Below are positions 24,911 to 42,900 of a stretch of 64,000 nt of DNA, piece by piece (within the stretch, counting starts at the first letter, position 1; each line of letters begins with the position of its first letter). The DNA is from Echinarachnius parma. Lineage: Eukaryota; Echinodermata; Echinoidea; Clypeasteroida; Echinarachniidae. The position numbers and the translations under genes are program-made. The notes beneath the pieces are model-generated. The model saw nothing but the letters and a program-made list of their open reading frames with translations, did no database searches and was not told the DNA's origin. The stretch covers positions 112,921-176,920 of the forward strand of contig JBAMJV010003843.1 in the NCBI GenBank assembly GCA_037951105.1, written 5' to 3'.

Positions 24911-27900
24911 CTGGGGAGATAAAAAGCCACATATTGTTGGGTGAGAGTGAGAAGGATGTCAAAGGAATCCACTTTGTCGAATTCAACCAAAATCACTTTG
25001 AGATTTCACACGTCTCTTGTACCTTGTTTGGCTTGTGGTAACATAAGAATGAAATGGGTTTTGATTTTTTTTAAATGTATCCCTAATTATGGAGATATTT
25101 GAGATTGAATTTAAAAGCGTTCCAAATTGTACAAATTTGTATTCTCTTTATCTCTTTAAAGTGCACAAGCAGCAATAGGAGGATCTTGTGCCAAACTATC
25201 CACTATTATTATCATCATTATGATATCATCATCATCATCAGAATTATCATCATATTCATCCTGGCTCATCATCATTATCACCATCACCATCATCATCATC
25301 ACCATTTGTACGAAACACCGACACAGACACTCTGTAATGCTGCGATACTTACATAGTTGCCTGAGGCCTTCAGCTTAGAGCGGTACTTGGTGGAGGCCAC
25401 GTAAGATGCCTTGACCGTCTGAACCACCGCACCCATCAGGTTCTTAGCGGCCTGGATCAGAGAGGTCGCACTGTCCAACTGCAAGGGATAAGAACAGTAA
25501 TATTTAGCACAAAGACATACTGTATTCTAGAAGCTTATTTAAAATGTCAGGGATCAAAACCATGTGAGATTCTTTAAAAAGCAGCCCTGATCAGAGAGGT
25601 AGCACTGTCCAACTGCAAGACACAAAAATAGTAATATTTAGCACAAAGACATATTCTGTAACTTATTTAGAATGTCGGGGATCAAAACCACATGAAATTC
25701 TAAGCAGCCTGGGTAAGAGAGGTTGTACTGTCCAACTGTAAGACACAACAATAGTAATATTTAGCACAAAGACATACTGTATTCTATAGCTTAGTATGAA
25801 TGTCAGGTATCAAAACCATGCAAGATTCTTTAAAAAGCAGCCTGGATCAGAGAGGTTGCACTGTCCAATTTAAAGACACAAGAACAGTTCAATTTAAGAC
25901 ATAGTCATATCCTGTCACCTGCTACTTTTTCTATTTAGAATGTCTGGGATACAAACCACACAAGATTCTAAGAAGCCACAATTAGAGAGGTCACATTGTC
26001 CAACTATAAGACACTATAATGGTACAGTTTAAAACAAAGTCATGTTTTCTCATTAGGATATCGGAGATGAAAATTGACCACACCCATCAGTGACATACCC
26101 CTGAGAGGAACACGCTCTCCGCTAATGTTCTGAATCTCGGCCTTCACCTTGCATACAAACATACAAATAGATAGACAGACAGACAGACAAACAAACAAAC
26201 AAACAATCACACAGGAGCTTGACTGGCAGACCCCTGCGAGGATAAGCTCTCCACTGATGCTCTGAACCTCTGCATTGTCCTTGCTGGTGAGGCTGTACAA
26301 ACAAACATAGAATTATATACATGTAGACTGATACACAAACAAACAAACAAACGAACAATCTTCAGTTAGAGTGACATACCCCTGAGGACAAGCCCTCTGC
26401 CGCCAAACACACAAACAGGCACATAATTAAAAACAAAAACTATGTATAAACAGACAGACCCAGTGGCATACCCAGGATTTTTTCAAGGGGGGGGGGGGGG
26501 TTTTCCTTGATAACATTTTTCTGTCAGCGGGGGGGGGGGGGGGGGGGTAATCGTAGAAAATTTTCGAAGCCGAGAACAAGTACCTTCAAAATTTTCGAGG
26601 CCAAGACCAGGTCCAGTCCACAATTTTCGAGACCAAGACCAAGTGGCAATTGAGAATCCTATAAGCGGGGAGGGGGGGGGGGGGGGGGGGTAGTCGTAGA
26701 AAATTTTCGACATTTTCGAGGCCCAGACCACGGTTTTTCGCACTTTTCGAGGCAAAGACCACGGTTTTTCGCACTTTTCGAGGCCAAGACTACGGTTTTT
26801 CGCACTTTTCTTGGCCGAGACCATAGTTTTTCGCACTTTTCGAGGCCGAGACCATCGAAAATGACGGTCGAGACGGCTAAAATTTGGTATCGGGACCAGT
26901 TAAAATTTGAAAAGGGGGGGGGGGGGTTCAAACCCCCCAAAACAGTCATTTTTTGGTCAAAGGGGGGGGGGGTTGAACCCCCCAAAACCCCCCCCCCCCC
27001 TCCACGGGTACGCCTATGGACAGACCTACACACCAACAAACAAAATACTTGACAAACGGACCAACAAACAAACAAACAAACAAACAACTAGACAAACAAA
27101 CAAACAAACTTTAGTTTGAGTGATGACATACCCCTGAGAGGACAAGCTCTCCGCTGATGTTCTGAATCTCTGCCTTGACCTTGCTGGTGATGTTGAGTTG
27201 GTGACAGTAGAGGGCGATGCGCTGGAGGTACGCCAGCAGATCCTCCTTGGACGATGAGTCTGGGCACTGCAGGAAGATAATAATAATAATAATAACAAGG
27301 CGATAGCCGTACAGTGCAACATTGGACCTCATTTGACCTTTGACCTACTTATGTGACCTTTGACCCCAGCAAATCATGGAGGCCGGTATAGGGCATCTAC
27401 CAATCAAGATTGGTTACAAACAGATGCAGAGTTGGAAAGTTATCGACCCTAATAGACTCTTACCCCAAAAACTTCACATTGACCCTCATTTGACCTTTGA
27501 CCTACTTATGTGACCTTTGACCCCAGCATATCATGGAGGCCGGTATAGGGCATCTACCAATCAAGTTTGGTTACAAACAGATGCAGGGTTGGAAAGTCAT
27601 CGACCCTAATAGACTCTTACCCCATAAACTTCACATTGACCCTCATTTGACCTTTGACCTACTTATGTGACCTTTGACCCCAGCATATCATGGAGGCCGA
27701 TATAGGGTATCTACCAATCAAGTTTGGTTACAAACAGATGCACGGTTGGAAAGTTATTCAAATTTTTGTAAAGCGTCACGGACGGACAGACGGATCGCCG
27801 GACGGACAGACTGACGGACGGACAGACCGAAGGATGCAATTTGGATCACTTAGTCTCCCCTCCACCTACGGTGGGCTCGACAACAATTTGGATCCCTTAG

Positions 27901-39900: not shown

Positions 39901-42900
39901 TCCCTTGAATTATCTACTTCTTGCATGATAAATCATGGTAAACTTAAACAACTTCCAGAGGTGTGTAATCACTAAAAGCAAAAGCATGCTTATGCTGTTT
40001 TCTTAATTTCACACACCCCCCCTGGAAACCTTTGCAACATGTAGAATATAAACATAGATCAACCAATCCACAGAGGGAGTGTGCACATGCATGCTAAGAC
40101 CTATCAAAACACATGTCTAGCTTTTCACATTCATTCAAATTGCAAAGTGCAGTGTGTTTTGCGATTATCGTCGCGATACCATCAATAAAGGGGAATAATT
40201 TCATCTTTCGGATCATTATTCATTTTTTGAAGGTATTAGAAGGAATCATGTTTACAAGGTAGAGACTTGTGGCTACTTCGAACTATTTAAGGTTTTAAAA
40301 TAACACAGATTTAAGTGATTTCATTTCTCGATTTGCCAATTTATCTTAGCTCTGCTCAGTCCCATGTGTGCTTTTTTGTGTTGGTGATTTTATGGACTAT
40401 AAAATAACAAAATCGTACATGGAAAAGGGCTTAGTTTCATCAGTTGATGACTCTTAGATGAAACTGCTCGATTCTAGGTTAGGTTTTGTTTATTCACTGA
40501 TGGATTTCTTTAATGATGGTGATAATTTTAACACATAACTTCCATAATTTCACAATTAATGACCGAGTACCGTAGTCATGACTCATGATGTTTTTCTTTT
40601 TTCTTTGTTTGTAAAAAAAAATTTCTGGCCACCAGAAAAAAAAAGATAATTTCGAGCATTGGAATAACAAATGAAGGCTAAACATTGCCCAGTACCCTGA
40701 AACTATGAATATGGTTATTGTATTAATTTTACTTTTGTTTTTCCTTATTTTTTTTCGGGCCAGTAGATTTTGGTTTCGGGCCACCAAAATTGGAAAAATA
40801 CTAATTTTACTGGCCCGACCGGGCCACCAGCAAAAAAAGTTAATTTCGAGCATTGGGTAATTCTATCGCTAGCTGAATACCGCTCCTGGAGGGCTGAGGA
40901 GCGGTAGTGATTTTTGAGCACTCAAGCTTGCATCCAGTACATTTTATCAGGGTTGGCACTAATGTCTCAGCAGAGGATTAGCAGAGAGTAGAGAGAATGA
41001 ACTGCATAATCTACTAAAGGAGGAGAGGGGGAGACCATGGTAAATCCCTGGCTCTGGAATGTCTTATCAGTTGGTTGCCATGCCAACTGAGATATGAGCA
41101 GAGCAGAGAGGGCAGGAACCAGGGCAGTTAATCTCTCTGGGCCTTGAGGGAAGTAAACACAGCATGGGATTGTAGACAGTAGTAATAAAACTGATAAGAA
41201 TGTGGTCGATACGGAAACAAAAATGATAAAATTGATCACCACGATGGTGGAAGACAAGCTAATGGGACAATCACGTCATGTAGTAAAAATAATTGCAAAC
41301 AGTCAACAACTATCACAATAACCCTACTGAGAATTTCCATAAAGAAAACAATAACAATCACCAGTGTGAATAAAGATGTTTACAGATGCCATTCATTACA
41401 TCTTAAAGCTGCTTCACGATGCAGTCTCTGTTCCCATGGGCTGAGGAAAAAATGAAGACAAAATAGTGAAAAGCATTGTGTTGTGTTTTCTCATGTCAGC
41501 ACTGGCTGGCAATCACTGTTTTCCCTAACCCTAGGACCCCCGCTTGTTGTGTTAAAGATCTATTTCAACTCTGTGGGGAGCAGTATTGCAGCGTGCTTGC
41601 ATCTATCACATATTTGTTACTCACCTTTGAAGCAGTGAAGAGCATGGTGCTGTGTTTTCTTAGGTCTGCTCTGGCTGCGGCCATTTCATCTCGGCGACGA
41701 GGGTCCTTCAGATCCTGTTATGAGGAGAGACAAAATATCATAGCTAATATGGCATCTCACAACGATTCAATCTTTCTGTCTCGTCATGTTTCAAGGTTAT
41801 ATTGAAGGCTGGAGAAGGAAACTACAGAGCTCTTTAGAATATCATTACGCCATAAATAGTATAACATAGATTTTACTACAGATATGTATGCTTGCTGGCC
41901 AACTGAAGCAAAGTTTACAGAAGAATAGATAGGCCAAACTTAACAGGTGGCAGCAATCATTTGGAAATATCCCGTCTATGTTTTGAGTTATGATGTTATG
42001 GGCCATTCTTGGTCACGTGTGTGACCCAAAACATGAACAATTTTGAAATAGGACGCTTATATTTCAGTAAGTATAAGAGGTATAATGATTTTTACTTTGT
42101 ATGTGACTTGAATATGTTGAAGTCTTTCAGACTTAACACAAAGGATTTTATAAGGATTACGTTACTCTATGTCAGAGGTCAAATGGCATGGGTCACGTGT
42201 GTGACTTCGCACGGAGCGCTTTTTTCATAACTCAAATTCATTTGGGAAATCCTTTGAAATATGAAAAGCTATAATGTTCATCTTATTACCAGACAAGTAT
42301 TATAGATCTGTAAGTACAAAAATAGCAATGAATAAGAATTATATCAAACCGTTGTTTTTTATTGTAATTAATTATGTGGTAACGTCTGGTCACTGTGTGA
42401 CATTTTGGGGTGGTCATGTGTGTGACATGTACAATATGAATGGAAAAATGGGAATTTTATAATATCGGGTTTAGAAAGGAATGAAAGGTTCATTTTTTAC
42501 AAAGTTGGTATCAACATGTACAGGAAAGTGAGAAGAATAAGCTTGCTAACTATCCTTTCGATATCTTGATTATTTTCTGGGTTATGATTTTAGAAAAATA
42601 TTGAAATATGTAAATTTATGCAAATGAGTATGAAAGTGTCTTTATTTAATGTAAATCATATATCTCATGAAACTTTACACATGGATCATTCCAAAAATGG
42701 AACAAAACAACAGAAAAATAAAACTTCAATTTTTCCGAAAAAGTTTCACTTTTCAAAGAATGGCCCTTATGAGGGTATGGAAAATTATTTTTGCCCCAGT
42801 AGCTTTTTAATGACCTTCTGCATTGTGTACAGTACAATTGTGAAAACATCTTTTAAAATATATATATATTTTTGTTTACAAAAGCTTGACATTTATGTAG

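Follow-up and report, generated by a model that had tools for sequence, protein, structure and literature searches.

Partial copies of exon edges in alpha-catenin introns of Echinarachnius parma and their likeness to amphioxus mirages

We analysed a stretch of 64,000 nucleotides from the echinoid Echinarachnius parma (contig JBAMJV010003843.1, positions 112,921 to 176,920), hereafter the window, whose minus strand encodes alpha-catenin between 46,045 and 24,749. Its 20 exons have AG and GT sites and form an uninterrupted frame of 912 codons. Nine of these exons (5, 6, 9, 11, 12, 13, 16, 18 and 19) have local partial copies, which we call echoes. The echoes were sought in two ways, by blastn of each exon with 250-bp flanks against the window and by self-alignment of the gene in 200-bp tiles, with matches taken within 3 kb. 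Both searches returned the identical nine exons, the same ones that an earlier note on this DNA had named; its figure of about 20 copies agrees with the 19 copy rows that we counted in the window haplotype (haplotype A). Identity of these copies to their source was about 71-92% in the self-alignment. The features are as follows, in window coordinates.

24749..46045, minus strand: alpha-catenin coding region (splice-consistent exons, continuous frame, PF01044 matches)
41625..41714, minus strand: exon 5, host (blastn)
41465..41508, minus strand: exon-5 echo, nt 38-81, 84%; downstream, on the donor side, ending 9 nt before the junction
41384..41443, minus strand: exon-6 mid-exon echo, nt 29-88, 83%, no junction; upstream of exon 6
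39505..39581, minus strand: exon-6 acceptor-edge echo (23 nt of intron and exon nt 1-66)
38513..38689, minus strand: exon 6, host (blastn)
36817..36939, minus strand: exon-9 acceptor-edge echo, spacing 138 (blastn and alignment)
36619..36771, minus strand: exon 9, host (blastn)
35034..35190, minus strand: exon 11, host (blastn)
34832..34940, minus strand: exon-11 donor-edge echo, spacing 186 (blastn and alignment)
34506..34612, minus strand: exon-12 acceptor-edge echo, spacing 138 (blastn and alignment)
34257..34457, minus strand: exon 12, host (blastn)
34142..34211, minus strand: exon-13 acceptor-edge echo, older, 73% (blastn and self-alignment)
33882..33963, minus strand: exon-13 acceptor-edge echo, unit 73-74 bp, 92%, breakpoints sharing TGAGATNGC
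33690..33841, minus strand: exon 13, host (blastn)
29619..29731, minus strand: exon-16 acceptor-edge echo 3, AG kept
29455..29545, minus strand: exon-16 acceptor-edge echo 2, AG kept
29272..29420, minus strand: exon-16 acceptor-edge echo 1, exon part 90%, intron part 89%, AG kept
29006..29187, minus strand: exon 16, host, with echoes of both edges (blastn)
28815..28890, minus strand: exon-16 donor-edge echo 1, GT lost
28672..28726, minus strand: exon-16 donor-edge echo 2, GT lost
27132..27266, minus strand: exon 18, host (blastn)
26335..26400, minus strand: exon-18 donor-edge echo (exon nt 113-135 and intron)
26155..26290, minus strand: exon-18 donor-edge echo, GT kept
26091..26152, minus strand: exon-18 donor-edge echo, 92%, GGG/GTATGTCA kept (GGG/GTATGT)
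25567..26073, minus strand: exon-19 acceptor-edge echo array, 3-4 copies, spacing about 135
25353..25478, minus strand: exon 19, host (blastn)

The splice-site remnants pointed out earlier were indeed present, namely GGG/GTATGTCA at 26,091-26,152 and AG near 29,351, 29,537 and 29,719 in the exon-16 copies. According to the earlier note, such copies could serve as decoys or as seeds of new alternative exons. Counted by eye, AG was kept in 10 of 11 acceptor echoes, which is not clearly above what decay would leave (tail 0.05-0.15). The intact reading frame suggests that alpha-catenin would be spliced normally despite the echoes. Among them, Tandem Repeats Finder detected only the exon-13 and exon-19 arrays, so that most echoes escape ordinary repeat annotation. 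The locus also holds unrelated repeats. A 157-bp satellite of ~3 copies occurs in intron 17 (27319-27789) and upstream of the start codon (47090-47532), and also on contig C4017, near 41,240-41,642. In intron 18, a 31-bp minisatellite beside G-runs (26704-26854) lies between exon 18 and its echoes.

The exon-6 acceptor-edge echo lies 148 bp from exon 6 in the second haplotype (B) and about 870 bp away in haplotype A, because haplotype A carries an insertion there. This insertion of ~725 bp (38692-39417), missing in haplotype B, ends ~10 bp before the acceptor of exon 6 and forms a strong foldback (the DNA fold of 38690-38880 has -61 kcal/mol, z -13.8). The pyrimidine tract of the exon 6 acceptor in haplotype A would then be supplied by the insert.

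Echoes were found in all four genes tested, as would be expected of the recurrent process that the earlier note had proposed, and are thus not local to alpha-catenin. The additional exons were anchored by family models or tblastn, and their ends are approximate. In a vinculin gene, found by the same family search as alpha-catenin and with incomplete exon annotation, 9 of 14 anchored exons were echoed on contig C6262; its allelic counterpart, contig C1512, had 10 of 14. The two vinculin alleles differ by 9.4% in their introns, compared with 2.75% in alpha-catenin, and by dozens of indels of at least 50 bp. A cullin gene (contig C9239) had echoes of seven of nine exons; this contig was one of five cullin contigs and was chosen after doubled matches had appeared in its match table, which inflates its rate. 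Without such a hint we chose a chaperonin gene (C8375), in which two of six exons were echoed at the DNA level. Its three rows were a donor edge downstream, an acceptor edge upstream and a mid-exon copy upstream; the echo of a third exon was seen by eye in translation only. With one haplotype per gene, 27 of 49 exons were echoed in this small, non-random sample.

For a closer description, we counted rows that pair a copy within an exon with a copy outside all known exons, dropped low-complexity rows and took copies within 12 nt of an exon end as edge copies. Haplotype A of alpha-catenin, vinculin (C6262) and cullin together gave 53 rows. Thirty-one were acceptor-edge copies, all upstream of their exon, and 18 were donor-edge copies, all downstream; the remaining four were mid-exon, no whole exon was copied, and no edge copy lay on the wrong side. 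Inclusion of both alleles raised the total to 88 rows, of which 47 were acceptor-edge, 34 donor-edge and 7 mid-exon copies, again with no whole exon and none on the wrong side. Exons 16, V1 and V12 were echoed at both edges. The polarity that had been noted in alpha-catenin therefore held without exception among edge copies of three genes. It follows from geometry and requires no special process: when a duplication spans an acceptor, the intact exon is necessarily its last copy, and when it spans a donor, its first. The further statement that echoes never come from the exon middle alone has exceptions: 81 of the 88 rows reached an edge, and one that did not is the exon-6 copy at 41,384-41,443 (nt 29-88), which begins 21 bp after the exon-5 echo. 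The latter stops 9 nt short of its junction and was classed as donor-edge through the 12-nt tolerance.

Chance similarity and misassembly had been named as possible refutations, and neither was borne out. As a control for chance, we made five block-wise dinucleotide shuffles of each of three loci, with low-complexity rows dropped. The numbers of local direct-duplication families in the real sequences were 14 for alpha-catenin, 27 for vinculin and 13 for cullin, versus 0 in each shuffle. Since none of the 15 shuffled sequences yielded a family, a chance origin was ruled out. Inverted local matches touched exons in none of five cases in alpha-catenin, none of five in vinculin and none of eight in cullin.

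Wrongly joined haplotype segments or collapsed repeats might be suspected in an assembly that retains both haplotypes at high heterozygosity (intron differences of 2.75% and 9.4%). However, the allelic contig C4017, which represents haplotype B of alpha-catenin and differs from the window by 2.75% in introns and 1.0% in exons, echoes the same nine exons at matching places, which excludes an artefact for most copies. Moreover, the alpha-catenin copies, at about 71-92% identity to their source, fall below allele identity, and unrelated genes show the polarity as well. We rejected an assembly artefact on this second-contig evidence for most copies, and we regard it as extremely improbable.

Two fused echoes, exon 5'-6' in alpha-catenin and C6'-C7' in cullin, initially looked spliced, as would be expected if pieces of spliced mRNA had been reverse-transcribed and inserted into introns. 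In the cullin case (C9239:18429-18592), a donor echo is joined to a truncated acceptor echo of the next exon at a short shared sequence. The unit still holds the donor, with about 15 nt of intron that begin GTAAGG, and it is therefore a genomic fusion. On this content we rejected both retrocopying and an intron gain through this unit. The intronic portions of most copies align as well: for eight families (E6, E9, E11, E12, E13, both edges of E16, and E19), the copies nearest to the exon had 240 of 289 aligned intronic positions and 453 of 541 aligned exonic positions identical, as summed by hand; local alignment favours matching parts. Outer copies were left out of these sums because their intronic parts contain nearer echoes. 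The alignment of intronic parts indicates that the echoes are copies of genomic DNA rather than of cDNA. Retrocopies would also not be expected to adjoin their own exon with fixed polarity, and we give this origin hardly any credence.

Tandem duplication of whole exons, including mutually exclusive exons, is likewise a local duplication of exon sequence, and the echoes might be decayed remnants of whole-exon duplications, or alternative exons that have fallen out of use. That such duplication occurs in this genome is suggested by the adjacent similar vinculin exons V9 and V10 (C6262:52791-52910 and 53429-53554), which are candidates for a mutually exclusive pair and may represent a duplicated whole exon that stayed functional. 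In contrast, a complete exon with both splice sites was spanned by none of the 88 echo rows, and successive copies of an array end at about the same point within the exon. The absence of whole-exon copies, with about 2.3 expected among 28 families, is weak evidence by itself (P 0.03-0.07). With the array ends considered too, we find an origin from whole exons very unlikely.

The copies lie head-to-tail, and most are spaced near the unit length, in line with the proposal that tandem duplication crossed a junction and one full exon was retained. In 28 hand-compiled families, adjacent copies were spaced by a mean of 176 bp (median 186), and 27 of the 28 values fell within 130-235 bp, a range set after inspection of the data, with two values taken from second haplotypes. 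The smallest spacing fell in this range in 25 of 29 exon-edge families, 12 of 25 intron-only families of the same genes and 11 of 40 families outside these genes. The difference in unit length between exon-edge (median 182) and intron-only families (146.5) was marginal (P 0.05). In vinculin, the tandem duplications confined to introns have a cluster of lengths near 141-151 bp, which is nucleosome-core length (C6262, C1512), and include a blunt intron duplication of 145 bp at C6262:36745-37041.

The haplotypes differed in copy number by steps of about one unit (134-211 bp), which also fits tandem duplication. At exon 19, haplotype A has one unit more than haplotype B (134 bp, 87% identical to its flank), and the array extents agree with this. 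At V5 there were differences of 211 and 189 bp (75% and 63% to flank), and at V12 one of 204 bp (67%), each in agreement with the copy rows. Several further haplotype differences lie near exon 16. A one-unit difference at V5b was dropped, as it was unsupported by copy rows.

Taken together, these results make it very probable, in our judgement, that the echoes are mirages, a term used for similar structures in amphioxus: short tandem duplications across junctions that arise recurrently, survive beside the functional exon and then decay while units are gained and lost. In the first step, a short head-to-tail duplication, typically of 130-235 bp, would have one end in the exon and the other in the intron. 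Splicing would keep using the site beside the complete exon, and the extra copy, with one splice site and part of the exon, would become intronic and decay. Later, unequal exchange or slippage would add or remove whole units, giving rise to copy-number variation between haplotypes. The duplicating step itself we infer to be replication slippage or break repair. Exon 13 is the single simple young case, with a duplication of 73-74 bp whose homeologous breakpoints share TGAGATNGC, a near-homology of 9-14 nt.

Several observations fit this account poorly. Identity to the flank is only 63-67% for the units inserted at V5 (189 bp) and V12, and an extra local rearrangement is needed to explain both the exon-6 copy at 41,384-41,443 and the C6'-C7' unit of cullin. 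The blunt 145-bp vinculin duplication has no microhomology at its breakpoints, and, given such clean intron duplications, one breakpoint mechanism cannot fit all cases.

We asked whether tandem duplications favour exon edges. With random placement, 5.1 of the 14 alpha-catenin families, 4.8 of the 27 in vinculin and 3.9 of the 13 in cullin would be expected to touch an exon; the observed numbers were 10, 11 and 8. The second haplotypes gave 10 of 12 for alpha-catenin (4.7 expected) and 12 of 28 for vinculin (4.6 expected). Counted by exons hit, there were 9 versus 5.9 expected in alpha-catenin haplotype A (P 0.10) and 9 versus 5.2 in haplotype B (P 0.048), 9 versus 5.4 (P 0.044) and 10 versus 4.7 (P 0.002) in vinculin, and 7 versus 3.9 in cullin (P 0.035).

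Such an excess could arise without any preference if tandem duplications were random and those at exon edges stayed visible longer through their conserved exon copy. Because exon-edge echoes would be detectable for longer in this way, we simulated random duplication followed by decay, with indels and exon constraint, in one version also with insertion turnover. This simple model gave ratios to random placement of 0.8-1.3 and predicted 14-16 exon-touching families out of 54, compared with 29 seen (P 7e-6 to 1.5e-4 under the model), a number in which the cullin share is inflated by the choice of contig; alpha-catenin and vinculin alone contributed 21 of 41. The younger pairs E13, E16 and E19 keep their intronic parts nearly as well as their exonic parts, which also speaks against differential visibility, as does the per-family excess in all three genes. 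Consistent with random placement are the intron-only families of similar unit length (the 141-151-bp cluster in vinculin), the 16 of 27 families that touch no known exon in the incompletely annotated vinculin gene, and the excess counted by exon, which is weaker than that counted by family. On balance, an absence of preference seems somewhat unlikely to us. An exon-edge bias of about twofold is likely, and we put it no more strongly in view of the simple simulation, the incomplete annotation and a cullin contig whose selection was not blind.

A more far-reaching and speculative reading is that a germ-line process acts on DNA of nucleosome length (about 145-200 bp), hits exon edges at about double the rate of other gene sequence, is common to echinoderms and amphioxus, is still active and supplies half-exons with splice sites for new exons and introns. 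Exons would perhaps be targeted through positioned nucleosomes or a sharp step in base composition. We hold this reading only tentatively and, as a whole, think it unlikely. The apparent exon-edge bias and the nucleosome-like unit length nevertheless suggest a specific mutational process, for which any long-read genome could be searched. If mirages pervade an echinoderm as well as amphioxus, they are no lancelet oddity and may be widespread in invertebrate deuterostomes. Half-exon lookalikes, which standard repeat finders mostly overlook, would then be a hazard for gene annotation in such genomes. Mirages would also supply duplicated splice sites that are polymorphic and can be measured, which makes the proposed seeding of introns and alternative exons testable.

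A mitochondrial contig of the assembly (C14600), the only one with a COI match, has the order large-subunit rRNA (Rfam), COI, tRNA-Arg, and then ND4L and COII, the last two named by eye. The single AAA of its COI occupies a conserved Asn position, and ATA is found where Ile is expected. We take this gene order and code to be those of an echinoderm; the rRNA immediately precedes COI, as it does in sea urchins and sea cucumbers. Amphioxus mirages, with which we compare the echoes, were reportedly treated by Canestro et al. in 2002.

In amphioxus, mirages are minisatellite-like tandem duplications that straddle a boundary between intron and exon, whether 5' or 3', and occur in Adh3, troponin C, the globins BflGb6 and BflGb9, and PGBD5 (PMC3087553, PMC3902484). 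The globin mirages have units of 150-160 bp at both boundaries, with six versus three copies per haplotype and 81-100% identity, and were proposed as a source of new introns. Splice signals are often kept in mirages, which are also characterised by leaving the mature mRNA undisturbed; in the alpha-catenin gene studied here, the 912-codon frame is intact. Other units measure 10-72 bp in Adh3, where somatic instability was described, and 60 and 108 bp in PGBD5. The echoes resemble these mirages in their repeat unit across the exon-intron boundary on acceptor and donor sides (81 of 88 rows at an edge), in copy-number differences between haplotypes (exons 19, V5 and V12) and in comparable unit length (mean 176, median 186 bp). 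They differ in that many copies are old (70-85% identity), in that 27 of 49 exons in four genes are affected rather than the single genes reported there, and in their host, an echinoderm and not a cephalochordate, a difference of taxon and not of structure.

Two other systems share part of this structure. Introns of amphioxus VCBP3 contain 'complete or partial exons' with identity to adjacent coding exons, some with canonical splice sites (PMC2632668). Unlike the genes studied here, VCBP3 is an immune gene family, the data were not shown, and no analysis of tandem arrangement or polarity was seen in the part of that paper available. In intron gain by tandem genomic duplication, an exonic AGGT segment is copied and a new intron arises (PMC3443670). 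The echoes share with this process a tandem duplication with splice-site sequence and duplicate material left in an intron; unlike it, they copy an existing junction together with intron sequence, and no new intron was found to result.

Judged by their sequence, the echoes appear to have all the structural features of mirages that we examined. Our literature search, in whose coverage subscription papers are mostly absent, gave no echinoderm mirage among the matches listed, and in the literature found, as far as its texts were available, mirages appear to have been described so far in cephalochordates alone. The structure thus appears to be the one already described as amphioxus mirages, and what appears to be new is its echinoderm host.

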